Below are positions 16,248 to 60,700 of a stretch of 64,000 nucleotides of DNA, in pieces (positions within the stretch are counted from its first letter, which is position 1; every line of letters begins with the position of its first letter). Source of the DNA: Siphonodentalium dalli (Eukaryota > Mollusca > Scaphopoda > Gadilida > Siphonodentaliidae); NCBI GenBank assembly GCA_032622095.1, contig CP136062.1, positions 151,896,875 to 151,960,874 on the forward strand, written 5' to 3'. The position numbers were made by a program, and so were the translations under genes. Below the pieces are notes generated by a model. The model worked only from the letters and a program-made list of their open reading frames with translations. It made no database searches and was not told the origin of the DNA.

Positions 16248-16413
16248 CTCTTAATCCAAAAACCAACACGGAAGTAGAATATCTGAAGAGAAGAATAACA
16301 GGTCAATAGAAACGTGTATATTGACACAAGATGTTGTTGGTATGGAGAAACTTTCGGCCACGCCATCGGGGCGCGGACGTTACCATAGGTAAAGTTTAGA
16401 TCCTCTATTAGTC

Positions 16414-28530: not shown

Positions 28531-28762
28531 TAACATATATTTGAACACTATGCCCAGAACACAACATATTAATACAGAATTTTGATGAGGTCAACATAAC
28601 TGGGATATGTTGTGTTGAGCTAACTGGTCATATACATGTATATGTAACAATTTTTACAGACATAAGGTGACCAGTTAGCTCAACATAACATACCCCACTT
28701 ACGTCGACCTCATCATAACTCTGTATTATTAATATGTTGTGTTCTGGGCATATTGTTCAAAT
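28531..28762. mobile_element. foldback element, family J
   Basis: The arms (ATTTGAACACTATGCCCAGA, ACACAACATATTAATACAGA, TTGAGCTAACTGGTCA) are mirrored on the right side around GGTCATATACATGTATATGTAA. The arms are about 100 bp with small differences. The Helitron-like element starts 3 bp after it. Confidence 0.6.
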
Positions 28763-28765
28763 ATA

Positions 28766-28786
28766 TCTCATATATATTTTGAAGAC

Positions 28787-28823
<37 letters not shown>

Positions 28824-29395
28824 CTTAATACAAATCTACGATTCTCGACCGATCGGGACGAAACTTGGTACGTGTGTGTAGTTTGACCAGGCGGTGGTCG
28901 TTGTCGTATTGGCGAGCCCGTGCGACGCCCGTGCAGCGCATGCGCAGACGAGATCTCGGAAAAGGGTGGAGCTATCGACTTGAAATTTGGTATGTGAATG
29001 TATCTTGCCCCGAGTACGAATTTTATCGGGTCGCCGAGCCCGTGCGACGCCAGCTTCGCGCATGCGCAGACGAGATCTCGGAAAGGGTGGAGCTATCGAC
29101 TTGAAATTTGCTATGTGAATGTATCTTGCCCCGGATACGAATTTTATCGGGTCGCCGAGACCGTGCGACGCCAGCTTCGCGCATGCGCAGACGAGATCTC
29201 GGAAACGGGTGGAGCTATCGACTTGAAATTTTCTATGTGAATGTATCTTGCCCCGGATACAAATTTTATCTGGTCGCCGAGCCCGTGCGACGCCAGCTTC
29301 GCGCATGCGCAGACCAGATATCGGAAACGGGTGGAGCTATCGACTTGGAAATTTGGTTTTTGAATAGCCCGGACAACGTCGGGCTCATCGGCTAG
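28766..29395 (+). mobile_element. Helitron-like non-autonomous element 1, with internal tandem repeats
   Basis: It begins A|TCTCATATATATTTTGAAGA and ends in a GC hairpin (AGCCCGGACAACGTCGGGCT) followed 6 bp later by CTAG|T. TC start, hairpin and CTRR end between A and T are Helitron hallmarks. Inside are a (GTCT)n microsatellite, a unique lead-in (CGACCGATCGGGACGAAACT), and about four units of 121-122 bp containing CGAGATCTCGGAAACGGGTG and CGCATGCGCAGAC. No Rep/helicase is encoded. The layout resembles tandem-repeat-bearing elements described in bivalves. The frames here are repeat by-products. Confidence 0.6.
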
Positions 29396-30670
29396 TCTCA
29401 TATATATATTTTGAAGACCTCTGTCTGTCTGTTTGTCTGTCATTAATACAAATCTACGATTCTCGACCGATCGGGACGAAACTTGGTACGTGTGTGTAGT
29501 TTGACCAGGCGGTGGTCGTTGTCGTATTGGCGAGCCCGTGCGACGCCCGTGCAGCGCATGCGCAGACGAGATCTCGGAAACGGGTGGAGCTATCGACTTG
29601 AAGTTTGGTATGTGAATGTATCTTGCCCCGAATACGAATTTTATCGGGTCGCCGAGCCCGTGCGACGCCAGCTTCGCGCATGCGCAGACGATTTGGTTTT
29701 ATGAATAGCCCGGACAACGTCGGGCTGGGTAGAGCTATCGACTTGAAATTTTGTTTTTGAATAGCCCCGACAACGTCGGGCTCATAGACGAGATCTCGGA
29801 AACGGGTGGAGCTATCGACTTGAAATTTGCTATGTGAATGTATCTTGCCCCGGATACGAATTCTATCGGGTCGCCGAGCCCATGCGACGCCAGCTTCGCG
29901 CATGCGCAGACGAGATCTCGGAAACAAGTGGAGCTATCGACTTGAAATTTGCTGTGAATGTATCTTGCCCCGGATACAAATTTTATCGGGTCGCCGAGCC
30001 CGTGCGACGCCAGCTTCGCGCATGCGCAGACCAGATCTCGGAAACGGGTGGAGTTATCGGCTTGAAATTTGCTATGTGAATGTATTTTGCCCCGGATACA
30101 AATTTTATCGGGTTGCCGAGCCCGTGCGACGCCAGCTTCGCGCATGCGCAGACCAGATCTTGGAAACGGGTGGAGCTATCGACTTGAAATTTTGTCTGTA
30201 TGTTTGTCTGTATGTATGTCATTTATACAAATCTACGATTCTCGACCGATCGGGACGAAACTTGGTACGTGTGTGTAGTTTGACCAGGCGGTCGTCGTTG
30301 TCGTATTGGCGAGCCCGTGCGACGCCCGTGCAGCGCATGCGCAGACGAGATCTCGGAAACGGGTGGAGCTATCGACTTGAAATTTGCTATGTGAATGTAT
30401 CTTGCCCCGGATACAAATTTTATCGGGTCGCCGAGCCCGTGCGACGCCAGCTTCGCGCATGCGCAGACGAGATCTCGGAAACAGGTGGAACTATCGACTT
30501 GAAATTTGGTATGTGAATGTATCTTGCCCCGGATACAAATTTTATCGGGTCGCCGAGCCCGTGCGACGCCAGCATCGTGCATGCACAGACCAGATCTTGG
30601 AAACGGGTAGAGCTATCGACTTGAAATTAGGTTTTTGAATAGCCCGGACAACGTCGGGCTCATCGACTAG
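29396..30670 (+). mobile_element. Helitron-like non-autonomous element 2, head to tail with element 1
   Basis: It starts at the base after the CTAG of element 1 with the same 5' sequence (TCTCATATATATATTTTGAA) and ends with the same hairpin and CGACTAG|T. It holds two lead-in segments (29450 and 30230), about seven of the ~121-bp units, and two internal copies of the terminal hairpin at about 29703 and 29765. It therefore looks like a composite of several rearranged elements. Confidence 0.55.
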
Positions 30671-35457: not shown

Positions 35458-35862
35458 TCAGAGACAAGGGAGGTGCCTGAATGACAAGGGATGTGCCTGA
35501 ATGACAAGGGAGGTGCCTGAATGACAAGGGATGTGCCTGAATGACAAGGGAGGTGCCTGAATGACAAGGGAGGTGCCTGAATGACAAGGGAGGTGCCTGA
35601 ATGACAAGGGCCTGAATGACAAGGGATGTGCCTGAATGCCAAGGGAGGTGCCTGAATGACAAGAGAGGTGCCTGAATGACAAGGGAGGTGCCTGAATAAC
35701 AAGGGAGGTGCCTGAATGACAAGGGATGTGCCTGAATAACAAGGGAGGTGCCTGAATGACAAGGGAGGTGCCTGAATGACAAAGGAGGTGCCTGAATGAC
35801 AAGGGATGTGCCTGAATGACAAGGGATGTGCCTGAATGACAAGGGAGGTGTCTGAGAACACG
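35458..35862. repeat. 20-bp minisatellite, about 20 copies
   Basis: The unit CCTGAATGACAAGGGAGGTG is repeated with sparse substitutions (GGGATGTG, AATAACAA) and one shortened unit near 35610. Twenty is not a multiple of three, so all three minus-strand frames read the same cyclic peptide without a stop. This accounts for the three overlapping long frames, which are not genes. Confidence 0.9.
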
Positions 35863-36017
35863 GGACTTTTTATTTATTTGGCCTAACAGTGCAAAGAATA
35901 TCAGAGGTGTATGTAGGGCTTCACGGTATCCGGATTATATGTATGCAGAGACTGTTACAAGCCCTTCTGTTCCTAATCAACTGAAAGCAGAATTCTGTTT
36001 TTTTTACTGCTCCAATA

Positions 36018-36136
36018 GATATCCCACCATGAATCTAAAAGCTCCTGGTAATAACATATCCATTCCGAATTTCAATAGATATACCACCTTGAATCTAAAA
36101 GCTTCTGGTAATAACATATCCATTCAGAATTTCCGA
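36018..36136. repeat. 59-bp tandem duplication near the F-box/UBC gene 3' end
   Basis: AATCTAAAAGCTCCTGGTAA with ATAACATATCCATTC is followed 59 bp later by a near-identical copy. It lies just downstream of the minus-strand stop codon at 36154, so it is probably in the 3' UTR. Confidence 0.6.
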
Positions 36137-36153: not shown

Positions 36154-36472
36154 TCACTTGATATCCAATGAGTTAAAATCGATATCGAGTGGAGTAAGAT
36201 AATCATGCATCGCATATTTCCATGTCCATATTCTCGATACTCGGTCGAACTCTTCCTTATCCTGTGAATACAGCAGTCCGATTGAAGGTTCCATACACAC
36301 ATGACAGAAGGGATCGGTCAGTAGAGACTGAATGCTTATAAGAACCTTTGAAATTGTCAGAGCCAAACTCCAGTTATGGTGAATAGAGTCCACACCTACG
36401 TCGCCATGACGACTGATGTTTGGATGAAATATCTTTGTGATGAATCTGACTTTTGGCGGCTTCATGGGATAA
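36154..36472 (-). CDS. F-box/pseudo-E2 gene, exon 7 (C-terminal half of UBC fold and stop)
   Basis: Acceptor CTTTTCAG. It begins by completing a serine codon and reads YPMKPPKVRFITKIFHPNI, then RHGDVGVDSIHHNW where active E2s have cysteine in place of the second glycine, then the ALTISKVLISIQSLL helix and WTWKYAMHDYL. It ends SLDIK and TGA. Confidence 0.9.
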
Positions 36473-39400
36473 CTGAAAAGGAATGAATATTACAAGTTTT
36501 TACTGAATATATAAAGCATGATATAAATGAAAGCGTCAATGACACTCTAGCTCAACTTGGAGAGGGGATCATTTAATGTGTTACAGTAAATTTAACGATT
36601 AGGAATGCGGAAATTGAAATGTGTAAGTAATACTAAGACGGCTGCCGGTGGCCATGTTTTCATCGAAAATTGTTCAAATTCGATAACTCCCATCTAGAGG
36701 TGATCATAAACATGCCTGTAAATTTTCAAAACTAATAAAGCCTCGCATATATAAGAGAATACATTGGCAATATTAAGCAACCTTGTAAGACAGTGCATTC
36801 TCTTATATATATATGAGGCTCCATATGGGAGACTCGCATATATAAGAGAATGCACTAGCAGTCGGGATCTTTAATGCTGCACCAGCGCATGAAAGGCCTA
36901 AAGAGTGAATCGTCTAAACTAGAAACCCATAAATTCTCCATGTAAAGGTTCTAGGGAGATCAACATACCTGTCGGGAATTTGTAAATACAAGAGAAACAA
37001 TCCGCCTTCATACGAGCTACCCTGTGGTCCTGTTATCGAGAGATCAACATACCTGTCAGGAATTTGTAAATACAAGAGAAACAATCCGCCTTCATACGAG
37101 CTACCCTGTGGCCCTGTTATCGAGAGGGAGATCAACATACCTGTCAGGAATTTGTAAATACAAGAGAAACAATCTGCCTTCATACGAGCTGTCCTGTTAT
37201 CGAGAGATCAACATACCTGTCGGGAATTTGTAAATACAAGAGAAACAATCCACCTTCATACGAGCTACCCTGTGGCCCTGTTATCGAGAGATCAACATGC
37301 CTGTCGGGAATTTGTAAACACAGGAGAAACAATCCGCCTTCATACGAGCTACCCTGTGGCCCTGTTATCGAGAGATCAACATACCTGTCGGGAATTTGTA
37401 AATACAATAGAAACAATCCGCCTTCATACGAGCTGCCCTGTGGCCCTGTTATCGAGGCCTGCCAGTGGCAGCAGTGTCTGTCGAGTGGCGTGGCCTGTAT
37501 GCCCTCAGGTGGATCAGTTTTTAATGTTTTAAGCTCACTTCTCAGTCGACGATGTCGCCATGAATTTTCCTCTATTGGCGGAGTACTCTGTAAAAAAATG
37601 AACAAAAATCACTAAAAATGGACGAACTAAAGAAACAGAACTAAGGGCCATAACTCAATCAAGATATTTAGTGAAAGATCCATATACCCAATATGAATGG
37701 AATCTGTTGACATTTGTTGACAAGTTATCGAGCTAAAGGTCATACAATTGACACAAGTGGCATAACTCTGGTTAGAAAGTAGGTGCGGGCCTAATTTTCT
37801 GTTTGCAGCTGTTGCACGTGACAATACACACATAAAAAAATTGTCAGAATCCATCAATAACAGCTATGTTATATAGGTTTGGAGGCCGCCCGTCAAGCAT
37901 CACTCTTCAAACCAAAGTTTTTAATAAAATACTCAACCAAAAATAAACAGTTGTTTTTCTGAGATAAAGAAAGCTTAATTTATTGTTCAATTTAATCTAG
38001 AGAAAACCTTATCTTGCCTGACATAATGATGCAATGAAAGCATTCAACCAGAATGAATTCAAGCCACTCATCTTCCATAATTTACATTCAAATCCTTTGA
38101 TAACGGAATAGTCAGTGATAGGTAGGGGTCTTGCTGTCAGCCAAATTGGCCAATGGCCAGAAATATGAGAAAATGGCAATCACATCCTACTGAAACCTTT
38201 TCATCCAATAACAATTAATCAGCAGTTGCTCAACAGTATAGGCTTGGACTACAATTTACAAGAAGCGACATTGCTTGTTTCTGACACATGCGCATGTGTT
38301 TTATTTTTTGTGGCCCAGCTATATGGCCAAGCAAATTCAAAACGTCCAAAAGAATTTTCAGGTCAGCATACTGAATGAACGGGATAATCCATTCTGTAGT
38401 CAAAGGACATTTGCAGAATGAGGTCCCCCACAGGGTGAATTTAGTGATCCTACCCTGCACAGCGTGTTATCAATCAAATTCTGCGGACCTCATTCTGCAA
38501 ATGACAGACACACTATATCCAGAGTTGACTGTCACTATGATTCTTATAACTTACCTGTAACATCATACTCTCTAAACAGAATTTACATGGTGAACTCTCC
38601 AAGCTGAAAAACAAAACAAAATCTTAAGTAAAAAAATCCCCATAAGACAAATTTCTTGATTCGAACTTGGTCTAAACTTTTGAGTCAACCAGGTCACATA
38701 CTCGGGTAAAAATTATCAAACCAAAACAAAACTCAGTTCCAAATCATTTGGTTGTAAATGAAGATACAAAATTTCATCTCATTTCGATCATCAAAACCCA
38801 AGTTATATTCTGTAAAATTGAAATTAAGTGGAGATGATGGCCGATGCTTTATGATGGCCGATGACGGCATATGCCTGATGGTCTATCTCTTCCAATAACA
38901 AGTTTCATGGGTATAATTATTAAACTGATAATAATAAATGACTCAAATACCCCTGTCTGGAAGAGCTTCAATCAATTGAAAGTGATTTTATTTCAAATTT
39001 TCTGGTTTAATATTCATACAATCAATTTGCAAAATTTTCTGACTCGTGCTCGTTTGGAGCATACAATGTGAGATAACTCTATCTAAAATTTAAAAAATAA
39101 TAATGAAAAAATGTCCCACTTAATTATTCCATTACAAACAAAAATATAAATATAAAATCAATATTAATTGATAGAATTAGACAGGTATCTTTGACTCACA
39201 TCTTTTATTTAATACCCTGGAAACTATATAAAACGTGTTTAGAAAGAGATATACCATCTTTAAACGTTTCTACACTAAAGCATTATTGATGAGTAGTTAT
39301 CCCATAGGAAATGTTCAGAAAATAAGTTCAACAAACGACCTATCGACCATAGGTCATTTGTGAACTTATTATCTAAACATTCCCCTCAATAAATAGTGGC

Positions 39401-42400
39401 TCCTTCTGCACATTTATATATCTGCCATCTGCTTTTATCACCTGAACAACCCTCCAAATGAATAATAAATCATTTTGATGTACACTTTTTAACCGACTGG
39501 GAGAATAAATTTAGTATAGAAAGGGTTAAAGACATATTATGTACTTGTTCTGGTGCGTGAAACTGATAAGTTAGTATTCAGGTGCTATACCAACTGGATG
39601 AATGTGGCATTCTACTAACATCATCTAAAATCTCAAGCAAATCGACCATACTACTCCATAGAAAACATCGTCTGAACTACGCTAATATGTAAATATTTAC
39701 TACTCGAATCGGGAGGCATCAATCGGCGGTAAACTAACGAAAACGATTTCGCCATCGGCAGTCACTGCATTTAATTAATATATAAGAATCACAGTGTGTG
39801 TTGTCAATTTAGATATAATATTTGTAAAAATAACTACTCTGAACAAGATTACTATCCATTTCTATTTGATCACCCTGCTGTAATGTTTCACATCACTTTA
39901 AATATGACAATTTTTCAAATGGGCATATATAAAGACTGATGAAACAAAAAGAATAAGACTGTTTTTTTATAAGTATAATGTGCTGAGGTTATAACACATA
40001 AGAAGTACATGTACTGAGGTTTTAAGACATGATAAGTACATGTACTGAGGTTATAAGACATAAGAAGTACATGTACTGCTGGTTTTAAGACATAATAAGT
40101 ACATGTACTGAGATATAAAACCGCTCACAGTTTTGTGTAGATCATTTTCCAGCATTTGATATCGAAATGTGGTTTATACAGCGGCCAACGGAGATGAACA
40201 AATTGTTGCCACTGTTCCTGACTAGTTTCGCTCTCCAATAAATGCCTCCATCGTGAGCATACGCTTCCCGCAGTCCACAGCGAGATATCATCCAGATACC
40301 GGAACACAACCAACAGAACTGTAAAGACAAATATCATGATAATGATATAAAGCAACTTTAACCCTTTCTATACTAAATGGATTCTCCCATTCAGTTATAA
40401 AAATGTACATTGGAATGGTATATTATTCAGTTGGAGGGGTGTTCAGGATAAATTGGAGATGGACTGTCCCAGTGGGACTAAGGATACCCCACGTGGCAGT
40501 TGAGAACAAGAGCTACGCTGGGCGTGCAAAATACGCCCTCTCTGGGGAAAATTGGCGGATGGAACCCAAATTCGAACTTGAGCTGTCTTTTCTCCTAATA
40601 AACCCACATACCAAATTTGATTGAAATCGGTTCACTCTAACTAAAGTTATCATCCGGAATTACGTCAAATAAGGGGCATAACTCTGGTGAAAATTGGGGA
40701 CGGAACCCAAATTCGAACTTGAGCTGTCTTTTCTCCTAATAAACCCACATACCTAATTTGATTGAAATCGGTTCACTCTAACTAAAGTTATCATCCGGAC
40801 AACAAATTTCAGGGATTTTCTAAGTCAAATTACGTCAAAAAAGGGGCCATAACTCTCACAAAAATTATCGGATTAAAACGAAATTCGGACTTGAGCTGTA
40901 TTTCGATATATGTAATCCACAAAAAAATGGGTTTTGCATATAAACATTCCAAAATCGAGTTATCATCCGGAAACCAAAAAACATAAGAAAAACTGAATTT
41001 TCAGAGTCGAAAAAGGGGCATAACACTGCCAAAAATGGTCGGACAGAACCCAAGTTCGAACTTAACCTGTGTTTAGGTGGGTGAAAGTAATATACCAAAT
41101 TTGGATTCATTCCGATAAACTATACTAAAGTTATCATCCGGACAACAAATGTCAAGGATTTTCTAAGTCAAAAAACGTCAAATAAGGGGCATAACTCCGG
41201 TGAAAATTGGCGGGCGGAACCCAAATTCGAACTTGAACTTACTTTTCGGCTAATAAACCCACATACTAAATTTTATTAAATTTGGTTCACTCTAACTAAA
41301 GTTATCATCCGGAAACCAGGTTAACAGACGCCCGGACGGACGCCCGGACGCACGGACGGACAGACCAATACTATAATACAACCGTTTTTTTCAAACGGGC
41401 GTATAAAAACGGCAAACAAATTGCCCAATCAGCCTCTGTATCAAGTTTTAAAAAAAAATGTCCAGAAAACGTAGGAATACAAGCTCGGACAAAGTTATGC
41501 ATGTTGCGAACATTTTCTAAGTAAAAAAGGGGGATAACTCCATAAAAAAAAAGTCTAACGAACCTCATAAATTGCTAGTGCATAGGTTCCCATGGTACAT
41601 GTACTAAATATATGTGTCAAGTTTAAAAAATAATTTACTGAAAAATGTAGGAATATATAAGCTCGGACAAATTAAGCATCTTGAGAATATTTTATAAGTA
41701 AAAAAAGGGGGATAAGTCCACACAAAAAAAGTCAGACAGACCTCATAATCGCAGGTTCCCATGGTGCTAAATATCTGTGCCCAATTAAAAAAAAAATTAC
41801 CAAAAAAGGCTGAAAAATGTCAGAATAAAAGGTTATACAAAATTGTGTCCAAGGACTGACAGATGGATAAGCTGATTCCAGTATACCCCCCCCCCCCCCC
41901 CCCCCCCCCCCCCCACATAATTAGCAGACGACAGTAAGACGAAAAAATAATACAATTGCTGATAGATTCATATTCTTTTGTGGGAAATGTTCAGAAAATA
42001 AGTCTAACAAATGACCTATGGAACTACTCGTCAATGAGTATTTAGTATAGAAAGACAGCAAACGGTATAACATTACACTTTCTATCTCTGAGTCGTACTA
42101 GCCCTTCTATTCATACAAAATGCCTTGGCAATATTTTTGCCTAGACAGAAGAAATGTCCTGACAGTATGCCCCTGACAGTACGCTATGTAATATGAGGCC
42201 GATTTAGCTCTATACTTGTCTGTTCTGTTTGGTAATGATAGGGCAAAAGTTTCATTTCTAATTTCAGTTAACCCTTCCATGACTGGAGCTTCCTGAAAGG
42301 GAGCCATGCATATATAAGAGAATACATTGGCCTAACAACATTTACCTTGACCTTATAAGCCAGTGCATTCTCTTATATATGCAAGGCTCCCTATGGGAGG

Positions 42401-45400
42401 CTTGCATATATAAGAGAATGCACTGGCACATGATATTTAATGCTGCACCAGCGCAGCTCCCGTCATTAAAGGGTTAAATATTCAAATGTAAACATATTCT
42501 GACCTTCTGGTGGCAGGGACTCCATCATTCCGACAGGGACATTCTCCGACTCCCAATCCCTTGGTAGGGTTAGCATTGATATTCTTTCAGCAAGCTTGTC
42601 AAGCTTGTAAGCCGATTTGCCGGTCTTCAACTGTTTTTCTTTTTTTGTGGGTGTGTAAAAATCTCCGACAGCTCCTGGCTCCTCGTTACCAGAATCATCC
42701 GAGTCCGCTTTCTGAAAATGGAAAAACAATATTAAATTTGTTCTTAGTAAGCCACATTAGCACAGCCGTTGAGATACACCAACTACAGTAATGCTCTAAG
42801 TAATCGATTCTTTAACGACAGCAGAATTATGGGTAACTTTTCAGGATTTAGTCAGAAATATGGCTTGTTGCCATTCATCGGAAAGCTCTCCCCGAGAGCT
42901 TTCCGATGAATGGCAACAAGCCATATTTCCGACTAAATCCTGAAAAGTTACCCATAATTCTGCTGTCGTTAAGGAGTCGATTACTTAGAGCATTTCTGTA
43001 GTAGGCATAGGAGATTCAGGTCTGGTCATGATACGTAATGTATCCCGATATAAGGTTCATGATACGAATACGAATCTAGATATCTAGATACCAAGAGACA
43101 ATAGGTCGTTTGTTGAACATATTATCTGCACATTTCCCCATCAATGAATATGAATAATTCTGCTCTTGTTATCTGTTTTTCTTCTATCGTCTGCTTTTAT
43201 TACATTAACACCCCTTTAAATGAATAATACATGTAGACTGTTCCAATGTACACTTTTATAACTGAATGGGATAATCCATTTAGTGTAGAGTGGGTTAAAG
43301 AACCATACCAGGGTCAAGAAATCCACAACCCAGGAAAATTTAAAACAGAAACCCCTGCAAGAACAACAGTGGAAATAAGCCTAAGACCCAGACTTTACTA
43401 TGTCCTCCTGTGTTTTCACACTTAATAAATTTACTCTTACATTCAACAATGAAAATAGGAAGCCAAATATAACACAAACCCCTACTGCACTTACAATATG
43501 AAGACTATAATGTTATCCCTAAATGTTACAGCGTATATATATTTTTTGCAGGTAACAAGCCGAAACTTAACGTGACATATGCTTAGTATGGCACAGTCAG
43601 TAAACTGCAACTGATGATGATGATCCTAACGAAACATCTTAGCATGTTTTCAACTCACTGGGAGTCAATTTCTGAAAATTTATTAATTCTACTTTTGGCA
43701 TAAAATGGAGGTAAGTTCTAAAACTCTTTTCAAACTTTCATTAAACCGCTCCAGGATCCAGCTGCCACATCAAAATTCATGTCATGAGAACAAGGAGCAA
43801 TTTGTCTGCAGGGCTGGCGGTCAAGAAAATCCAGGAGGGCTATTAATAGCCCTCCTAGATTTGATTAGGAGGGCTATAGCCTAGTGATGGATCGGTTTCG
43901 GTTTTTGTAGTTCGGTTTCAGTTTTAAAAAAAAACCGAAGAACCGAACCGATCATTATTTGAAGAAAAAAACGGAAAAACGGTTCCCGATTTTAAATCCG
44001 GGCAATATGCTTTTTTTCTTCTGTTTGTGGCTTTTTCCTGTTTAAAAAAATGGAAGCGTCTGCTAACTCAAAAACTAAACCAAGTCCTAGTAAATGGTAT
44101 GAACACTTTGATCGTCTGGACATTCCGATGTGATGTAATCTGGTAGAAGTTTGCAGCCATGTGCAGCTTGTAAACTATGTCGCAACATCTTAGACATCAA
44201 AGCGATCACACCGCTGTCATTGAATGTGGGTCAATCGTGCACGTGTCAAGAATTGTTACACAGTCAGGTCAAGGACGCCCACTGTTTGTGAATTTGCTGC
44301 TGTTTGCGGTTGAATTCTCAGATACTAATGCATATAATATGATAAATATGTTTTAAACATGTCGGACAGGAATAAACAGTGAAGATACCGAATTGTATCA
44401 TCTTATCGCGTTGGATTCAGCATCGATCTATATTTAATATTTATAATATACATCGATGGATTCAGTTTGCATCGGCATTTTGTCCCGTTGTTTACCTGTG
44501 ATCGCAGTTCCTTCCTCAAATATTCAACGTTATTGGGACATTATTGACTCTAATTACGGTTACTTTGAAAGTATATACTCAAATTGTATGTATTTCAGTA
44601 TAATTTCACTATCTAGTAAAAAAAAACCGAAAACGAACCGAAACAGAGGTTTTATCTCCCAGCGAATACCGAACCTAAAAAATAAAAACCGCCCATCACT
44701 ACTATAGCCCTCCTCAACTTTTACAGTTTTTATACTTTTACTTTACCTGAGATAATACTCAGGCCTGGCAGTTAATTGCAGAAGGGCTGAAAATAGCCCT
44801 CTTGGGTTGCCTTAGAAGGGCTAATAGCCCACCTAGACTTCCTCTCTTCTCTTGAATTCATGTTTAATCTGTGCAGTGGATATTTCTAGTGGCATTGAAC
44901 ACAGCCTGGTTCTTTGTTGCTGAGAACATACCAGAAGATGTCAGAGATTAGCGGAAAGTTTTTGTTATATGTCCTAACAGGTTACAGTTTCACAAAGAGA
45001 ATTTCATGTTGGCGAGTTTTTACCAGCTTAGGGGGGGGCTGAAAATAGCCCTCCTGGAGTCAATTTTGCGATGTCTGTAGCTATCAAATAGCCCGCCTCA
45101 GATTTCTGTCTGTGATAAATTGGAATCTTGGTCATTATTATATTTAGCAATGAATCTTCTTTAATATGCCTAGTAGACATCCTCCTCTTTCTCCTGTCAT
45201 CCATACATGTATGCAACACTTTCATTATGTGGGGAAATTATGTGACGGATAGGTTGTAAGACAGTCCTCAATTCTGACTTGTTACTGTCATTCGGAAGGC
45301 TATTTGTGATTTTCCCTGACCGTGTCACCTGGTCAGACTTAGACACCCACAACCCATAATAACGGTTATACCTATAAAACAAATAGGAAGCCAAATATAT

Positions 45401-48016
45401 ATAACACAAACTCATAAGGTACTTACTTCTGGAAAGATCTCCTGTTCACCATCTTCACTGTTCACATCATTAGAGAACAGGAATAAATGACAAGTGCTAC
45501 AAGTGGGCTGTCCAAAATTATTACCATAGTATCCATCACACATCACACATTTGTCATACTGTAAAAGAAAGATATATGAAGACTACAGTATCTGACATAA
45601 AATGGCTATATGTCTGCATGATTACAGCATACATGAGTACATGCTTACTTGATTTGTAAATGAATCTACAAAACAATGAGTAAATATTGGAGTGTATGAA
45701 ATGATGTTATCGACTTTACATGAGACCAAAATTCATTGAAAAAATTAGACAGTGAATGAAGTTATTGAATAAATGAATAACGTAAATTACAAATGGTGGG
45801 CTATGAGAACCTGGTATATTGCAGCAAATTTAATGAAGCATACATGTATTTCACCATTGCCTCTCATTCTTCACATCATGAAAATAGTAGTATGTCTGGA
45901 CAATAATATTTTCATCTCAAAGTTGGTACAAAAGTTGTGAAAACAAATAGGTGCCATTTTTAATCAATATAGATTGTTGTGTGGTTGTATATTATAATTT
46001 ATGTATCATGATACTTGCGCGTCAAGCCTTGTTTTATTCCAGCTTTTAGTGGGGAACTGACAGCAAGAATGTGTGTCAGTATGTACCGGGTATGGGCAAG
46101 AGATTATGAATGCTAGTTTCCTTCAGAGTGCACTCTGAATATCACTGTCAGACCCTATACATGTACCTCTGGCTGTTAATGCGATTTTGAAGTCAATGAG
46201 TAATTAGTCTTTGATAGGTGTATGACGAGACAAACCTGAGATAATTTAAATTTAATTGCCGAATGATGGATATTCACCCAGAAATATTTGCAACTATGTA
46301 AATTTTGCCTCAGCGATTTGCATGGAAATGCCCATTCAAAATAAAACAAATTGCCCAGTGGACCTCCCCCTTAATAAACATAACATCAGAAACATCATAG
46401 TCCACCCAGCAGAGTCACAAGGCTCAGACTCAACACAGATACAGTAAACAGGTTGGGCACAGGTGCCAAATTAGTGAAATAACTCATTTGAGCTCATGTA
46501 CATGTAGGTAAATCACGCTAATTTTTTAATGTTATTTAAGTCCATTTCCTCAGTTCAATATATGCCGCGAGTTATCGCGGCAGGAATTGACTTTTACTAG
46601 ACCAACATAAGATTGAGCTTCACAAAATCGCCTTATGCTCATCTACTCAACAGTCTTGATATCTTTTGTGTGAAATTGCTTAACTTAATGTATCTTTGCA
46701 TTAAAATTATTAAGAGAAGATAGTTTTCAAATGAGTTTTCAGTCGGTAAATCTTGTTGTGTCAGCTTCGCTCCGCCATCTTTAAGCTTATCTTTAATAAG
46801 TTAAAATGAAACAAACGTTCTGATTGGCTGCTCAAAACAGGCTCCCTGGCCTCTATGTGTTTAATAAGTATGAATTTAATCGGCTAACACATGTGGAAAG
46901 CCATGTGCTTATATCCATATCGTCGCAATTGAAAACACAGTAAATGAAACGTAAAATTTTCAGTAAAATACAAATATGAATGAAAAGACCACTCGCACTT
47001 ACATATTTCTTCTTCTCTTAAAGGCAGATCAGTCACTTTCAACAAATGATTTATTCAAGTCTTGAAATAGGGTGTCTGTCATTTGCAGAATGAGGTCCCC
47101 ATAGGGTGAATTTAGTGATGCTACCCCGCATAGCAGGCTAGCATCACCAAATTCACCCTCTGGGAACCTCATTCTGCTGAGGTGTAAGCAGTATGAGGTC
47201 CCCAGAGGGTGAATTTGGTAAAGCTAGCCCGCTATGCGGGGTAGCATCACTAAATTCACCATCTGGGGACCTCATTCTGCAAATGACAGACACCCTATTT
47301 CAAGGCTTGGATTTATTGTAAATGGATGCCAGTGATTTATCCAATCGGACACGACGTTATAACCATGTGTCCGTAACCTTCAGAAATACATTCCAGGTAA
47401 ATTCATATGCAGAATCGGCAGTTTTCTGGTTCAAAAAGTGTTAATCAAATCGCCTATAATCGCACTGAAACTGTTGTATAATTAGTTGAACCGAAGGTGT
47501 TATTGTGAAGTTTGACGTGGGGGTCTAGCTAATGAAAGTAAATTCCTGTCAAGATAATTTGCGGCATATGTCGAATTGAGGAAACGGACAATAAAAATAT
47601 TGGCACCTGAGCCGATGTTGTGCCCGACCTGGTAAATGACACGCCCAAATTTTGCAAAAAATGTGGCAGTAACTCTTTCAAGAATACATGTAACCTGATT
47701 TCTGGTCTGAAACTGAAACAATGTAAGAAATTAGTAACTTGCGTCTTGAACCACTTAATGTATATTAGCCGAAAGGTTCAATAAAATATCAATCATGTGA
47801 TTCATCCTATGTTATGTACGTCGACAATACGCAACGTGACATCTTTGCTGGTCATAGAACGAGGCCTAATTTTTCTAAAATGGCTCCTAAGATATTTCAA
47901 ATGTTGGAGGAGAATTTTTCTCATGTACTGGCATGTAAGATAGTATTAAGTTATACCTCAGCTTTAAGAAATTGATCAATTTCTTGATCGTAATTTTCTC
48001 GATGAAATGACTCCAT
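36154..48016 (-). CDS. F-box / pseudo-E2 (UBC-like) fusion protein with N-terminal zinc module, 7 exons, 386 aa
   Basis: Exons (minus): 48016-47957, 45558-45427, 42711-42504, 40318-40129, 38603-38555, 37587-37385, 36472-36154. Every junction has GT/AG and the phases join to 387 codons including the stop. Residues 21-44 are a CxxC-x12-CxxCH module (C24, C27, C40, C43). Residues ~128-175 are an F-box (SLPPEVLLVVFRYLDDISLW, then CSRW). C203/C206 form another CxxC. Residues ~218-371 are a UBC fold closest to UBE2D/E (YPMKPPKVRF, HPN at 297-299, LALTISKVLISI, WKYAM). The catalytic cysteine position, eight residues after HPN, is G307, so thioester chemistry should be lost. F-boxes bind SKP1 in SCF ligases; the protein may be an SCF substrate adaptor using a dead E2 fold as a binding module (inference). 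I know no vertebrate gene with this layout. Confidence 0.8.
36541..36712 (-). repeat. family K repeat, reverse copy 3
   Basis: It contains TAGCTCAACTTGG, GGCTGCCGGTGGCCATGTTT and TCCCATCTAGAGGTGA, matching pieces of 11736-12610. It lies in the last intron of the F-box/UBC gene. Confidence 0.45.
36719..36900. mobile_element. TTAA MITE fragment, family C
   Basis: It carries half of one palindrome (CTCGCATATATAAGAGAATA) and a second, full version (36790-36862), then TTTAATGCTGCACCAGCGCA and CATGAAAGG. Neither TTAA survives. It is intronic. Confidence 0.5.
36965..37468 (-). repeat. 84-bp tandem array duplicating an exon end and its 5' splice site
   Basis: CCTGTC(G/A)GGAATTTGTAAA recurs at 36967, 37051, 37139, 37215, 37299 and 37383 (offsets 84, 88, 76, 84, 84). 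On the minus strand each unit is ATAACAGGGCCACAGGG ... ATTCCCGACAG|GTATGTTGAT, that is 68 coding bases of exon 6, the donor and 16 intron bases. The copy at 37383 is the true exon end; five lie in the intron. One copy (37299) has GC instead of GT at the donor. The 84-bp units are in frame (28 codons) with no stop. Confidence 0.9.
37385..37587 (-). CDS. F-box/pseudo-E2 gene, exon 6 (N-terminal half of UBC fold)
   Basis: Acceptor TTTTACAG, donor GACAG|GTATGT, 67 codons plus two bases. It contains RRLRSELKTLKTDPP (helix 1), HWQASITGPQGSSYEGG and LFLLYLQIPD (beta strands), all in UBC order. The last 68 coding bases and the donor are duplicated five times in the following intron. Confidence 0.85.
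37600..38404. other. intron of F-box/UBC gene, no recognisable feature
   Basis: AT-rich sequence without coding character. GGGCCATAACTCAATCAAG and similar phrases near 37647 and 37760 hint at the same degenerate repeat as 40.5-41.4 kb. Confidence 0.35.
38405..38527. mobile_element. MITE-like foldback, family F copy 7 (short form)
   Basis: CATTTGCAGAATGAGGTCCC and its inverse CCTCATTCTGCAAATGACAG with ACACACTATATCCAG. The left outer tip is lost. Confidence 0.55.
38555..38603 (-). CDS. F-box/pseudo-E2 gene, exon 5 (CxxC linker)
   Basis: A 49-nt exon between TTTTTCAG and CAG|GTAAGT; its phase fits both neighbours. It reads LLESSPCKFCLESMMLQ and adds C203 and C206. It ends about 30 bp from a family F element (38405-38527). 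Confidence 0.7.
39145..39262. repeat. dispersed repeat, family M copy
   Basis: It shares AATATTAATTGATAGAA, ATACCCTGGAAACTATATAA and ACCATCTTTAAA with the copies at 22.3, 27.1/27.8 and 62.2 kb. It directly abuts a family D element. Confidence 0.45.
39259..39531. mobile_element. family D element copy 3
   Basis: Left TTAAACGTTTCTACACTAAA, right ATTTAGTATAGAAAGGG then TTAA. A foldback around GACCTATCGACCATAGGTC lies in the middle. Confidence 0.6.
39528..39905. mobile_element. TTAA-bounded copy related to 23.8-24.5 kb
   Basis: TTAAAGACATATTATGTACT ... GTTTCACATCACTTTAA. It shares GAAACTGATAAGTTAGTAT, CCATAGAAAACATCGTC, GTAAATATTTACTACTCG and GCAGTCACTGCATTTAA with 23.8-24.5 kb. It shares its left TTAA with the right end of the adjoining D element. 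Confidence 0.5.
39975..40118. repeat. 31-32-bp tandem repeat, about four copies
   Basis: GTACATGTACTG occurs at 40005, 40036, 40067 and 40099, each with TTATAAGACATAAGAA-like spacing. It ends about 15 bp from the donor of exon 4 of the F-box/UBC gene. Confidence 0.7.
40129..40318 (-). CDS. F-box/pseudo-E2 gene, exon 4 (F-box core)
   Basis: Acceptor CTTTACAG; a donor ACT|GTGAGC. The split codon restores PPEVLLVVFRYLDD. The F-box continues through SVCSRWRHLLE, and WPLYKPHFDIKCWK follows. F-box proteins commonly show such Trp-rich sequence after the motif. Confidence 0.85.
40455..41405. repeat. degenerate tandem block (family Q) inserted in a family D element
   Basis: Repeating phrases AAGGGGCATAACTC, CCCAAATTCGAACTTGAGCT, AATAAACCCACATACC and AAAGTTATCATCCGG recur about every 110-170 bp, roughly six times. 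It ends with a CCCGGACGGACG run and AAACGGGCGTATAAAA, shared with 31500-31590. No coding frame is supported. Confidence 0.6.
41406..41885. repeat. related degenerate repeat, continuation of the insertion
   Basis: GTAGGAATA(C/T)AAGCTCGGACAAA, GTAAAAAAGGGGGATAA and TTCCCATGGT recur two to three times with offsets of about 165 bp. It is still inside the split family D element. Confidence 0.45.
41886..41914 (+). repeat. C(29) homopolymer
   Basis: Twenty-nine consecutive C. The true length is uncertain because such runs are often mis-sequenced. Confidence 0.8.
42268..42477. mobile_element. TTAA MITE, family C copy (intact)
   Basis: TTAA on both sides; ends CCCTTCCATGACTGGAGCTT and AGCTCCCGTCATTAAAGGG. 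It has half a palindrome on the left and a complete version at 42357-42427. It ends 27 bp beyond exon 3 of the F-box/UBC gene, in the intron. Confidence 0.75.
42504..42711 (-). CDS. F-box/pseudo-E2 gene, exon 3 (linker and start of F-box)
   Basis: Acceptor CATTTTCAG, donor AAG|GTCAGA, ending in phase 1. An acidic start (KADSDDSGNEEPG), a basic stretch (TKKEKQLKTGK) and then MMESLPPE, the first helix of the F-box. Confidence 0.8.
42785..43002. mobile_element. long-hairpin element, family G copy 2
   Basis: A near-perfect inverted repeat, ACAGTAATGCTCTAAGTAAT to its inverse, meeting at GAAAGCTCTCCCCGAGAGCTTTC. The arms are about 105 bp with very few mismatches, so it would form a long RNA hairpin if transcribed within the intron. 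Confidence 0.75.
43085..43297. mobile_element. family D element copy 5 (right half)
   Basis: GGTCGTTTGTTGAACATATT, ATGTACACTTTTATAACTGA and ATTTAGTGTAGAGTGGG then TTAA. The left half is missing. Confidence 0.5.
43882..44701. mobile_element. hAT-like non-autonomous element with 8-bp target duplication
   Basis: It is bounded by a perfect 8-bp direct repeat CTATAGCC (43874-43881 and 44702-44709). Ends TAGTGATGGATCGGTTTCGG / inverse of TAGTGATGGGCGGTTTTTAT. An 8-bp duplication and TAGTGATGG-type ends are typical of hAT transposons. At 820 bp it is too short for a transposase. A decayed stretch near 44051 (SKTKPSPSKWYEHF) may be a remnant of a BED-type zinc finger region. Confidence 0.8.
45427..45558 (-). 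CDS. F-box/pseudo-E2 gene, exon 2 (zinc-binding-like module)
   Basis: Acceptor CTTTTACAG, donor GAA|GTAAGT, phase 0 at both ends, 44 codons. It encodes YDKCVMCDGYYGN then QPTCSTCHLFLF and an acidic tail (NSEDGEQE). The spacing suggests one zinc site; the GYYGN part superficially resembles laminin-type EGF repeats but the cysteine count is too low. Confidence 0.8.
45559..47055. other. intron 1 of F-box/UBC gene, no recognisable element
   Basis: AT-rich sequence; the short plus-strand frame near 46260 has no recognisable domain. Nothing repeated elsewhere in the window was noticed. Confidence 0.3.
47056..47308. mobile_element. MITE-like foldback, family F copy 8
   Basis: Ends CAAGTCTTGAAATAGGGTGT and ACACCCTATTTCAAGGCTTG; two back-to-back GAGGTCCCCA(T/G)AGGGTGAAT hairpins inside. 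It lies in intron 1 of the F-box/UBC gene. Confidence 0.75.
47957..48016 (-). CDS. F-box/pseudo-E2 gene, exon 1 (start codon)
   Basis: Twenty codons, MESFHRENYDQEIDQFLKAE, ending at a GAG|GTATAA donor in phase 0. It joins directly to YDKC of exon 2. The phase match and acidic/helical composition support it; it is the least certain of the seven exons because it has no domain of its own. Confidence 0.65.
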
Positions 48017-48381
48017 TTTACTTCCGGTTTGTAAGTGCACATGCGCAGTCGAAATTAGAGCCGGTGCCCGTTTTGCTGTTTTGTTTCACAAGGTTCATTT
48101 GTTATTTACAGTTATACTAATTTTTTTGATAACGACATGACATGACGAAATACAGATGTAAGTTTGTAAGAGAGGTTTGGTTTTCATATTTACTATTGCA
48201 GTCACCCTTCATTCATTGAATTGTTAACTGTCTGCCTTTGGAAATACAAGTCAAGGGGGGGGGGGGGGGTAATCCACACTGCCGCAGTGCCAGGGGGGGG
48301 GGGGCGGTAGATCATGCCATGAATCTTTACTCTGGCTAATGCCCGTAGAGATCATATTCCTATGGAAGTCCAAATTCACAT

Positions 48382-51755: not shown

Positions 51756-54700
51756 GTAAGGAATACAAAGCCTTACTTTAGTTCTTAACCCTTCCATGAC
51801 GTGAGCTTCCTGAAATTTGCGAAAACCCTGTGCCAATGCATTCTCTTATATATACGAGTCTCCCATAGGGAGCCTCGCATATATAAGAGAATGCATTGGC
51901 TTAACAATATTTATCTTGACCTTGTAAGCCAGTGCATTCTCTTATATCCCTATAAGAGAATGCACTGGCACATGATCTGTAATGCTGCACCAGTGCAGTG
52001 AAAACGTAGCAGAGCTTACCTATTCACTGTATCGATGTCGCTTCCAACGCCACGCTTCGTCCCGCTAGCTAGCCCGAATCTTCAACACAACAGTTCAAAT
52101 ATCTCCTTTCGCTCGCTCATTTCTTCTCACACTCAAACCTACTCCCGTGCACGCGCACAGTTCACTTCCGCTTTACTCCAAATGTCCAAGGGAAGTAACT
52201 TCAGTAAAACACAATTAACTCTTTCGCTGCCAAGTTAACATGCAGCTCCCTTCATGAAAGGGTTAAGACCCAAAGCCTTACTTTTAAAAATATCAGACCA
52301 ATTTGCATCCATGCTCCACGGAACACAACAAAATCAACATCCATTTCTTATATTTACGCTTAGCTAGCAGATTAAAAGAGCACCCATTTTTAACAATACT
52401 CTGATAGCGAGTTGCATTCCTACAACATGGAAACAAGTTGGAGCTCGCGCATTATGTCACATGACACTGTTTCACCAAGTTACATTCAAGTTCCACAGAG
52501 TAAATACAATTAGGCATAGAAATTGAGTTCTAAGCAGAATGAGATTATTGGAGGGTGAATTTGGTGATGCTGACTCACTTTGTGGGATAGCGTCACTAAA
52601 TTCATCCTCTGGGGATCTCATTCTGCAAATGGCAGACACACTATATATCCAGGCTTCCCTTGGAGATAATAGGGAAATTAATTTGCAATTTGGACTGGAA
52701 GATAAAAGAATCTTTGATCCCGGAAACAATATGGGCAGGTCCAATTTCACATGCGATCGTGTCCTTGACCTTGACCTCACTCATATACGCTCTTATAAGC
52801 ATGTTTATGGACCTATACGCTCTTATAAGCATGTTTATGGACCTCGACTGATTCTGCCCTGATGGAGGCGATCACAAAGAAATCCCTAAATAGCCTGGTA
52901 GAAGGCAGGCACATCAACTAGTTTAGAATATAAAGAGGAGAATTTCTCTGAAAACCAGAGCTATTACATGTTGGTCAAGCTTGGGGCCACATTAAAAAAT
53001 ATCTTTATTTCCCCCTGACCCTACCCAAAATTTCAAGAATGAGTGGGTACAAGTTTAATTTATTCGTCTAAATATCATAACAAAAGTCATATACAAGTAC
53101 AGTAGCATACACTGTATATCTTTGAAGCTTAGTATGTTATGTGTTTAGGCCAAATAAAAAAGATAATATGTTTCCGTACATCGACCGACCCTAAAAATAA
53201 CCCGCCGACCCTAATCTTTTTATTGATATTTTGAGAAAAAGTCAAAATTTTCTATAAAAAAAAAAACAAAAAGGGTTTCTAACATAAGCCTGTGATAAGT
53301 GACATGAAGTGTGACAGTTGTCTCAAAAGCCACAGGTGTGTGATGGGTTGTGGATTGATAGGCATGAATCTTGCAATTTTAATTTCAAGAGAGTGGATCT
53401 CATGCCTGCTTTACCATTATGCCTTGTTTGGGACTTATGGAACATATTCATGAGTTCCAAATAAACATGCATGCCCATTTATTATTTTCTTGACAGCATG
53501 AGAAATGTACATTTCCATTTCGTTTGACACTTAATATTCAAACAACATTTTACTGGTACACTTCATTGCTTCACCCACCATGTTTCTTTTGCACACATTT
53601 AAAAATGCTGGGTGCTATCTAAAGGGGTACTGAATCTGCCAATTATGGGACCATCTCCTTTTATACTCAAGAGAATATATGCAGCAAATTAATGCATTTG
53701 AGCCATGGATTAGTGCCAAATACACTGATGTGTTCTATGAGAACGATGCAAACAACATGGTAATTTATATGACTGGAGTCATAAATTCATTTTCAATATA
53801 CTTACCATGTTGTTTGCACCATTCATAGAGCACATAAGTGTATTTGGCATTAATACATGCCTCAAATTCATTCATTTGTTGCATATATTCTGTTGAGTAT
53901 ACAAGGAGATAGTCCTACAAATAACCGGATTCAGGGTACAGTACCCCTTTAATATATTATTTTGTTCAAAATAAATGTTTTGTTTTGATAAACTTGCTTT
54001 TATAATTGACACCAACTAATGCTACACAGGTTTTGAAAATGTGCTGAACAGTATATTTGTGTCTTGTCATGATTTCTGTTAGAGGATCTTTGTATATGTT
54101 GCAAGGAAATTTAAAATTAACTGAAGACGAACTGCTGGTGGCTGTCAGACTTTCGGGAACACACTTAAAGTAACTGCATTAGTTCTGATCACAAACCCTG
54201 TGTACCCTTCAGCAGATTTTCAAAACCTGTGTACCGTAAAATACCCTTCAGCACTTTTATTTGGTGAGTGACCCCCTTCAGCCCAACTGACATCTTCAAC
54301 AATCAGGCAGAATATCCCATATGAACAATTCAAATATATAGGTTCTATAATATTTTCGGACAGTCGGAGAATATGAAGCCCCATCCCTCTGAGTTTATGG
54401 CCAAAATCAGTATGTGAATACTGAAACACACTATTAAGAATAACAGCAAGTTTGATATCTTGTTCAATGTTAATGTATATTTCCACAAGTAATACTTTCC
54501 CTACAACACAAGTAGGCATTTTATGTCATTTCGGTCGAGGTAGTTCAATAATTCTGCAGCTGGAAAAAAATATCAAAAAATAATTAAAAAAAAACATTTC
54601 CCTACCTACCTACCCTAATTTTTTCTCTCCGTTATCGGAAACATATTATTTTTTTTATTTGGCCTTATCATCCAGATTGAAAATAAAAACTAATTTTCTC

Positions 54701-57700: not shown

Positions 57701-60700
57701 GACCATAGGTCGCCTCGCATATATATAAGAGAATGCATTGGCCTAAAAAAAATCTTTTTTTAACACTTTTTACCATTTTTTTTACATTCTTTAACAATTT
57801 TATAATTTTTAATCTGTTAAGCCAATGCATTCTCTTATATATGCGAGGCGACCTATGGTCGACTCGCATATATAAGAGAATGCATTGGCACAGGGCCCTT
57901 CTGTTGGGCAAAGGGTTAAGAGGCCGGTCAGACTTCTTATAGAGTTATCACCCTTTTATATGAATCGGCTTGTCTGTCCCTCCCTCTGTGGACGCAATTT
58001 TGTCTGAGCTTGTATTCCTACATTTGGCAGTCAATTTTTTAAGACTTGGCTCAGATATTTAGTACCATAGAAACCTGTGCACCTGCAGTTATAAATGAGG
58101 TCTGTTCGACATATGCATGGTACACATAATGCTAACGTCAGGATCTACCATACATTGATCGTCTGTCCATCTGTCTGCCCATCTGTCCATAGACACATGC
58201 TATCCGACCCAATTTTATTTTTTATCGGATCGTGTTCATATTTTATGTGGTGCAGGTTTATGATGCCACACTCCTCACTTGTATAGTATTTAGTATCGAT
58301 CGGTTTAGAAATTATTAACACTTTATTGTTTCCATCCACCATTAGATATGTTCTATCCGATGCGATAACTCAAGTATTTTTTGTCAGATCGTGTTCATAT
58401 ATTATATACAGGTTTATGATGACACACCCCTCACCTGAATAGTTTTTGGTATCAACTGGTTGATTAACCCTTCCCACACATGATTGCTGCATGTATCTAT
58501 GAAACATATATTGCTAAAATATAATTCTTTTTCTATATTTATTGCAGATAACCAAGAGGCTATTGATGAAAAAAGAATGAAAAACTACAATGTTAAAGCC
58601 TTGAGACTGCTGGCGCTTAAAACGGCTGCATTTCTGAGATGGAATCTACATGTGCTAGACCAAGGGTGAGTCATATTAAATTTCTGGGAATGTTTTCCAG
58701 CTAACCTGATTGTCGGGAAATCTCCTGACACAATAAATTGCACTACTTCAAATTTGAGATGCGCAATAGCGCACCCAGTTTTCAAACTAGGTGCATCGAT
58801 AAGTGCACGCCTTGGGGATTTGCCGATTTAACAAACAAGAAACGACATCGGAATCAACAAGGTTATTTTAGTGTGACTGGCGCAGACACAGCATTTTCAT
58901 CAGACAATGTAATTTGATTTGTGCAATCGGGTTACCATCGTTGATCTGTGGCGATGTTTGATCCACAGGCGGTCACCTCACAGCATCGTTTGATCTTTCT
59001 TTTGTCACCTTTGTTATTTGTAGATTACAGCATCACTCTAATGTAATCTTGGATGAAATTTCATAAGGCATTTTTTTGTTATTACTTGGTTTACGGATTT
59101 CCCTATCCAAACAAAGCTGTTTGTCAATAAAAATAAAATTTTAGTTTTTGGTTTTTTTATTTCTGCCAATGGGAATATTAATCCTGACATATAACAAAAA
59201 TTAGAATAAATTATAATTTTACTTAAAATGTACAACATTGATTGAACAGCGAAGCCTTCTGGTGATGTTTTTGGTATTGAATGTCAACGCCAACATGGCA
59301 GACGCTGATATTGGCAATGTGTTTTCATCTATCCGTATCATGCTTTAAAGAAACATGCAAATAAAGAAATATATTTGCCCATGCTTGTTTTAGATGAGGA
59401 GATTATTATACAGCAAATATTTTATTTCTCCCGACCCTATTTTTTTGACAATTTAAATTAAAAAAAATATATACAGATTTTAGTTTTAGTTTTTTTCCTC
59501 CCATCTCCCCTACCTTTAAGCCAAAAAAATAAAATGCCTAATGTCACTAAAGGAACGTCTGTACACACAAACTATCATCACATAGTTACTCATTCTAACT
59601 CTCGAGAAGGAAGCAGTGATTTAATCTTAAATGTTTTACATTGTAGATTACCACCAGTGTACACACAGACTATAATCACTGAGTTACTCATTCTAACTCT
59701 CGAGAAGGAATCAGTGACTTAATCTTAAATGTTTTATATTATAGATTACCACCAGTGTACACACAGACTATAATCACTGAATTACTCATTCTAACTCTCG
59801 AGAAGGAATCAGTGACTTAATCTTAAATGTTTTACATTGTAGATTACCACCAGTGTACACACAGACTATAATCACTGAATTACTCATTCTAACTCTCGAG
59901 AAGGAATCAGTGACTTAATCTTAAATGTTTTATATTACAGATTACCACCAGTATACACACAGACTATAATCACTGAATTACTCATTATAACTCTCGAGAA
60001 GGAATCAGTGACTTAATCTTAAATGTTTTACATTGTAGATTACCACCAGTGTACACACAGACTATAATCACTGAATTACTCATTCTAACTCTCGAGAAGG
60101 AGGCGGAATCAGTGAAGACATCTCAACCAGAGCTCTCCACTTTCTCACCGGAAGCTTTGTTCGCACTGCAGCTCTATCACAGATGGTATGTGATATCCTG
60201 CATAAGTCTGCAAATAGTGTGTCTGTCATTTACAGAATGAGGTCCGCAGAGGAAGAATTTAGTGATGCTATCCTGCACAGCAGTCTAGAATCTCCACATT
60301 CACCCCCTGGGGATGTCATTCTGCTTAATCCTCAACTGCTATCGGAGACTTCACCTCGATTATGCATTTTATTTTCTGCAAATTAGGGGACTCACTCTGC
60401 TTAGGCCTCATCTTCTGGAAAGTATCTATATTCTCAAATTAACATTGTTTTTGGTTACTTTTTCCCTTCTATTCAGTTTCTATATCCCCTAATTTGCAGA
60501 AGTTAAATGGCATAATCGAGGTGAATAATGGGTGAACATCACCAACTTCAACTAGGGAACTTCAATCTGATTCTAGGTCTCCCATGCCAGTTGAGGTCCC
60601 CAGAGGGTGAATTTGGTGATGTTATTCCACTGTATGGGATAGCGTCACTAAATTCACCCTCTGGGGACCTCATTCTTCAAATGTCAGTCACAGTCTTAGT

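Follow-up and report, generated by a model that had tools for sequence, protein, structure and literature searches.

A gene of the scaphopod Siphonodentalium dalli that appears to join an F-box to an E2 domain without the active cysteine

MMS2/UEV1, TSG101 and AKTIP are E2 variants that have no catalytic cysteine, and COP10 is a UBE2D-like protein; to our knowledge, none of the UEV or COP10 proteins carries an F-box. F-box proteins, for their part, usually pair the F-box with WD40, LRR or Kelch domains. UEVs, which lack the catalytic cysteine, are described as forming heterodimers with E2s (PMC7215765), and combinations of the F-box with Kelch, LRR and WD40 are recorded in a survey of ubiquitin-system architectures (PMC4327156). 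A connection between E2-fold proteins and the receptor side of a cullin ligase has also been reported: in human, a UBE2E-family E2 is bound through its backside by DDB1-DET1-DDA1, an arm of a CUL4 ligase, in plants the same arm interacts with COP10, and in pull-downs DET1 recovered UBE2E1-3 but not UBE2D3 (PMC12808801). Finally, UBE2O, UBE2Z and BIRC6 contain a UBC domain within a larger protein (PMC11354881).

Here, we analysed a window of 64,000 nucleotides (the whole stretch of DNA studied, C2:151896875-151960874 in a 2.2-Gb genome of nine contigs), which contains what appears to be an animal-type gene joining an F-box to an E2 domain devoid of the active cysteine. With UEVs and plant COP10, the predicted protein shares a cysteine-less UBC domain, expected to serve as a binding or helper module (PMC7215765). 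As in UEVs, the catalytic cysteine is missing from the UBC domain and, as in COP10, the domain that lacks it is UBE2D-like; the difference is that this UBC domain is nearest to the active UBE2D enzymes. The resemblance to the DDB1-DET1-DDA1-UBE2E assembly would lie in having an E2-fold protein on the part of a cullin ligase that receives substrates (PMC12808801), whereas in that assembly the components are separate polypeptides, the cullin is CUL4 rather than CUL1, and the E2 keeps its cysteine and is held by the backside. Because the E2 bound by DET1 is active, backside-held and of the UBE2E rather than the UBE2D3 type, this case counts against its own use as a precedent. Like the FBXW, FBXL and FBXO proteins, the product has an F-box that scores over the Pfam cut-off and is followed by a W..Y..L stretch, but a C-terminal cysteine-less UBC domain replaces the WD40, LRR or Kelch repeats and thus stands where F-box proteins have a separate substrate- or partner-binding domain. 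UBE2O, UBE2Z and BIRC6 are comparable in that the UBC domain is embedded in a larger protein; they differ in being E2 enzymes, and an F-box goes unmentioned in the accessible portion of the source that describes them (PMC11354881).

The gene model rebuilt from the sequence consists of seven minus-strand exons running from 48016 to 36154, with lengths of 60, 132, 208, 190, 49, 203 and 319 nt, which together give a spliced frame of 1161 nt encoding 386 residues and closed by a TGA stop (Table 1). The six introns all have GT..AG boundaries, and exons 2-7 are entered in phases 0, 0, 1, 2, 0 and 2, which match at every junction; the seven-exon, 386-residue model proposed in an earlier, sequence-only reading of this DNA was regained exactly. 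The splice sites were ranked among the 691 GT and 673 AG dinucleotides of the strand with generic matrices, which we take from general knowledge. The donors of exons 1-6 rank 97, 10, 21, 38, 1 and 2, with rank 2 being tied with four identical donors of a tandem array, and the acceptors of exons 2-7 rank 17, 6, 69, 5, 1 and 42, so that the weaker-ranked sites are donors 1 and 4 (97 and 38 of 691) and the acceptors of exons 4 and 7 (69 and 42 of 673).

Table 1. Predicted exons and associated features, in window coordinates
Feature	Position	Strand	Basis
Possible promoter elements: ETS-type CCGGAAGT (48027-48020), NRF1-like GCGCATGTGC (48046-48037)	48020..48046	-	Motif scan
Exon 1: start codon, aa 1-20	47957..48016	-	Donor gtataa weak, rank 97 of 691 GT
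Exon 2: aa 21-64, CxxC-x12-CxxCH module (C24, C27, C40, C43)	45427..45558	-	Rebuilt model; nothing above a Pfam cut-off
Exon 3: aa 65-133, linker and F-box start (LPPE)	42504..42711	-	Rebuilt model, per-exon Pfam
Exon 4: remaining F-box and W..Y..L stretch	40129..40318	-	Acceptor 69th among 673 AG, donor 38th among 691 GT
Exon 5: linker with CKFC (C203, C206)	38555..38603	-	Donor 1st among 691 GT, acceptor 5th among 673 AG
Exon 6: N-terminal part of UBC	37385..37587	-	Acceptor 1st among 673 AG; donor 2nd among 691 GT (tied)
Exon 7: C-terminal UBC segment (HPN, G307, CHVC at gate loop), tail, stop	36154..36472	-	Acceptor rank 42 of 673 AG
Tandem array of six 84-bp units that carry the exon 6 3' end and its donor	36956..37456	-	Repeat analysis, genome search

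Immediately upstream of the start codon lie two motifs whose meanings, ETS-type and NRF1-like, we assume from general knowledge. The window has two occurrences of the ETS motif, 11 more NRF1-like matches all fall at 28.9-30.5 kb, and no TATA[AT]A was found within the 300 bp scanned. The two motifs before the start codon agree with a true first exon, if short of proof. At the other end of the gene, the nearest AATAAA past the stop codon is at 35878, 276 bases downstream, and a 20-bp array of about 20 copies (35463-35855) and a 60-bp duplication (36013-36133) adjoin the stop codon on its downstream side. Elsewhere in the window, the region 28757-30612, in which the NRF1-like motifs recur, contains overlapping long frames on both strands with recurring peptides such as CACAKLASHGLGDPIKFV, which suggests a tandem array. 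A 479-codon open frame on the minus strand (14811-16250), for which Pfam gave nothing at E<=0.01, is a possible exon of some gene. A repeated element, marked by the peptide MRSPEGEFSDA or a near variant of it in open frames at 1037-1393, 47085-47280, 52472-52862 and 60075-60386, is probably a small mobile element.

A Pfam search of the 386-aa product places both of the domains claimed from the sequence above their curated cut-offs. F-box-like covers aa 128-163 (E 4.7e-10; 39.5 bits against a cut-off of 24.3), with the F-box profile reaching 32.3 bits against 20.5, and UQ_con covers aa 227-360 (E 5.9e-40; 136.6 bits against 27). Given that these domains are split by introns and yet are rejoined in register, they provide a good control on the gene model. 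Searched by itself, exon 3 hits nothing in Pfam at E<=1; exon 4, stripped of its split codons, reaches 25.7 bits and enters the F-box-like profile at position 9, whereas the match in the whole protein begins at profile position 2 with the full 39.5 bits; the F-box had been described as cut by an intron at PPE/V and exactly restored, and this is what the scores bear out. Similarly, one UBC piece corresponds to UQ_con positions 1-55 (40.1 bits) and the other to positions 57-136 (83.9 bits), and the joined domain spans positions 1-136. The F-box consensus is intact, its core positions (LP, E-LL, F, L, VC.RW) lining up with PDB chains of SKP2 (best E 0.0043). Since, in addition, one Skp1-family exon was found in the genome, docking of the F-box on SKP1 is likely. 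For the N-terminal CxxC..CxxCH module, nothing over threshold was found in Pfam or the PDB, the best Pfam match, Ephrin_rec_like, scoring 20.0 bits, below its cut-off of 23.1. We also considered the first finger of nuclear receptors for this module, but the likeness is loose, was seen by eye and is supported by no search. Two further CxxC pairs are present, C203/C206 in the linker and, within the UBC domain, C337/C340 where the active-site gate loop used to be.

The UBC part aligns with UBE2D1 without gaps, with 70 of 146 residues identical (48%), and keeps the HPN motif (residues 297-299), in line with the likeness to UBE2D and UBE2E enzymes. In contrast to these enzymes, Gly307 occupies the position of the catalytic Cys85 of UBE2D1, an F-box is fused to the domain, the PPK/V exon boundary of the UBE2D- and UBE2E-type exons examined in this genome is missing, and the gate loop carries the replacements N114F, D116H, D117V and P118C. 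N114 and D117 are E2 gate residues that help transfer; the corresponding residues here are F336 and V339, so that both gate residues are absent. Other neighbours of the active site also differ from UBE2D1 (L86V, I88S, R90H and Q92N), with D87 being kept. Thus, what had been read from the letters, namely, a UBC domain close to UBE2D/E with glycine at the cysteine position and an intact HPN, is upheld by the alignment and, because the gate residues are gone too, the loss of catalysis is better supported than in that reading. The Gly307 codon, GGT, is one base away from the cysteine codon TGT; a single-base error at this position was rejected as the whole explanation, given that nearby gate residues are altered as well. 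With the flanking gate loop rewritten, the change goes beyond one odd base, and the domain looks like a dead E2, which should lack classical E2 activity.

Conservation of the surfaces of the domain was compared at positions of UBE2D whose roles (gate, RING/E1-facing and backside) we presumed from general knowledge. Among the RING/E1-facing positions listed, five of nine are identical to UBE2D1 (R5, P61, K63, S94 and A96), the others being changed (K4 to Arg, F62 to Met, P95 to Leu and K8 to Ser), and none of the five backside positions listed matches (R15T, Q20G, S22Q, T36S and V49L). The former fraction is barely above the domain average of 48% and the latter is nil, so that no binding face is singled out.

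To place these replacements in the context of the genome, we used 38 of the 50 UBC matches listed for it; the other 12 include two exons of this gene. Because some UBC loci are broken copies, the counts refer to exons, not to genes. Cys is present in 24 of the 26 exons with a residue at the catalytic column, and the two exceptions are a misaligned stretch with stops (L026) and an exon with Ser (L024). Asp is found at the D117 position in seven of eight exons and Asn at N114 in six of eight, and at P95, where this gene has Leu, Pro is present in 14 of 22. Nearly all of the best 60 of 307 PDB matches to the UBC part are UBE2D1-3. Across 80 aligned residues of the C-terminal half, 40 are identical to UBE2D1, 41 to L004 and 36 to L003, the latter two being read, from their sequences, as UBE2E-type exons of this genome. 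The UBE2D- and UBE2E-type exons examined have a junction at PPK/V, as judged from match ends; this gene has no intron there and is instead interrupted at PD/SYP. The different intron position implies that the UBC part probably separated from the others long ago or else lost one intron and gained another.

No paralog carrying both domains was present among the 28 genome matches of the whole protein, for which the best candidates were scored. The only one of these 28 outside the gene that covers the F-box is L034 (30% identity, E 0.002), read by eye as an FBXW5-like exon. On C5, a UBE2D-like exon (L040:4594-4704; G000:C5:108229593-108229703) carries Ser where the catalytic Cys would be and has one residue inserted; it lies about 0.3 Mb from UBE2D-type exons at C5:107.9 Mb and contains one stop inside the longer match, and tblastn over 9.9 kb detected no further convincing UBC exon near it. 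Pattern scans, which reach close relatives only, were extended to IMG/VR, where one stretch matched, encoding no relative, and to GTDB, where we rejected the matches: there were seven, and the one kept, 20 residues on a Micrarchaeota contig (L041), was judged to be due to chance. A search for the haemocyanin family PF14830, as a molluscan marker, gave no match and is uninformative.

The 84-bp tandem array at the donor of exon 6 is a feature absent from the sequence-only reading. Its first copy covers the end of exon 6. The remaining copies lie in the intron that comes next, and each of them again has the exon end plus a donor; of the donors in the array, five are GT, that of exon 6 itself included, and one is a GC variant. 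The consensus unit has six matches in the genome, all within the array, in a search that skips very common words. The first donor of the array restores the UBC fold, and the donors of later copies could serve as alternatives to it. An open frame of 142 codons, counted from 37608, extends into copy 4, so that splicing at the second donor could add 28 residues to the UBC domain, and splicing at the third could add 56.

The existence of the gene itself, with the F-box and the cysteine-less UBC domain in one unit, is well supported. Chance adjacency of unrelated exons is unlikely in view of the phases, the splice sites, the joined-domain scores and the spacing of F-box and UBC exons: among the matches listed for the 2.2-Gb genome, at least 44 F-box and at least 50 UBC exons, the closest F-box/UBC pair is 964,367 bases apart (start coordinates, strand ignored), and the split F-box of this gene is itself absent from the F-box matches listed. 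The locus might instead encode two products, an F-box protein that ends past exon 4 and a separate dead-E2 protein that starts at an ATG in exon 5. If the exon 4 donor is left unused, a stop follows immediately (KL-TGA), so that the gene might give a short product with the F-box alone; one AATAAA (38992) and three ATTAAA lie within intron 4, and exon 5 has two in-frame ATGs just ahead of the UBC exons. We consider two separate products very improbable, however, because exon 5 combines an acceptor of rank 5 among 673 AG with a donor of rank 1 among 691 GT, the best score of the region, and joins exon 4 through a matching phase-2 junction; AATAAA or ATTAAA occurs four times in the 967-bp intron 5 too, which makes such signals uninformative. 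Decay has to be weighed as well: the fusion could be intact by chance in a gene heading to a pseudogene, with the loss of the cysteine reflecting relaxed selection, as the missing catalytic residues and the tandem array overlapping the exon 6 donor might indicate. Against this stand 386 codons open across seven exons, six of six introns with GT-AG boundaries, the retention of both HPN and the F-box consensus, and the only two differences between the exonic copy of the 84-bp unit and the array consensus, both of which read as synonymous but are too few for a test; we regard decay as decidedly unlikely.

With regard to function, we give about an even chance to the product being a non-catalytic subunit of an SCF (SKP1-CUL1-F-box) ligase whose E2-shaped domain binds a partner. 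The F-box would dock on SKP1, and the C-terminal UBC domain would retain the E2 fold and be unable to carry ubiquitin in the normal way, the catalytic Cys being Gly and the gate rewritten. The UBC domain would then act as an arm that binds a protein partner and delivers it to the ligase, comparable to UEV domains and plant COP10 in their role as binding or helper modules; the partner, recognising the E2-shaped surface, would most likely be a substrate, a RING-type protein or an E2 complex. We infer, further, that the protein is expressed, that its fold is intact and that it binds SKP1. About 12% of human F-box proteins act independently of SCF (PMC3814724), so that the F-box alone is no proof of SCF membership. 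Thus, of the original proposal, the union of an F-box and a dead UBC domain in a single gene stands on the frame, the phases and the domain scores, and a role in presenting SCF with ubiquitin, an E2 or a substrate is plausible. A variant in which the domain is an E2-activating arm in cis, binding, in the manner of COP10, a charged UBE2D-type E2 or its ubiquitin and thereby speeding SCF transfer, would accord with UBE2D/UBE2E being nearest by sequence and with the heterodimers formed by UEVs and E2s (PMC7215765). All five backside positions listed are changed, however, and no interface is clearly above the domain-average conservation. COP10 acts with CUL4, not with SKP1-CUL1, and is not known to carry an F-box; this COP10-like activity seems unlikely to us. 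It is even less probable that the protein is a ligase arm in one polypeptide, with the F-box in SKP1-CUL1 and the tethered dead E2 beside RBX1 switching or boosting transfer in cis; in such an arrangement, C203/C206 and C337/C340 could share zinc and so lock the dead E2. Hardly credible, in our opinion, is an unusual catalytic E2 that uses C337 or C340 of the gate loop as the acceptor: these cysteines correspond to UBE2D positions 115 and 118, near the old active site, but the gate residues N114 and D117 are gone, and we know of no E2 with an acceptor cysteine at a gate-loop position.

Among the matches listed in the full text of openly licensed papers, no description of a protein with an F-box and a UBC domain was found; this scope is no proof that the architecture is undescribed. 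In the accessible portion of each source, the survey of ubiquitin-system architectures by Grau-Bove and colleagues (PMC4327156) names no protein with F-box and UQ_con, a soybean survey (PMC6052599) has no such fusion in its text, with its list of the domains that occur in F-box proteins being in a figure, and neither PMC11354881 nor PMC12773759 names a protein that combines an F-box with a UBC domain. Predicted proteins of this kind may well be listed in protein databases.

On the reading that we prefer, a non-catalytic SCF subunit, the product looks like an F-box protein with a cysteine-less UBC as its partner-binding domain, and the architecture looks unusual. The targets of SCF are chosen by F-box proteins, and E2 domains without the cysteine assist other ubiquitin complexes. 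If an F-box is naturally fused to a dead E2, this would suggest that an E2-shaped surface has its place at the receptor end of a CUL1 ligase, and the fusion would offer a ready-made construct for testing such a surface there.
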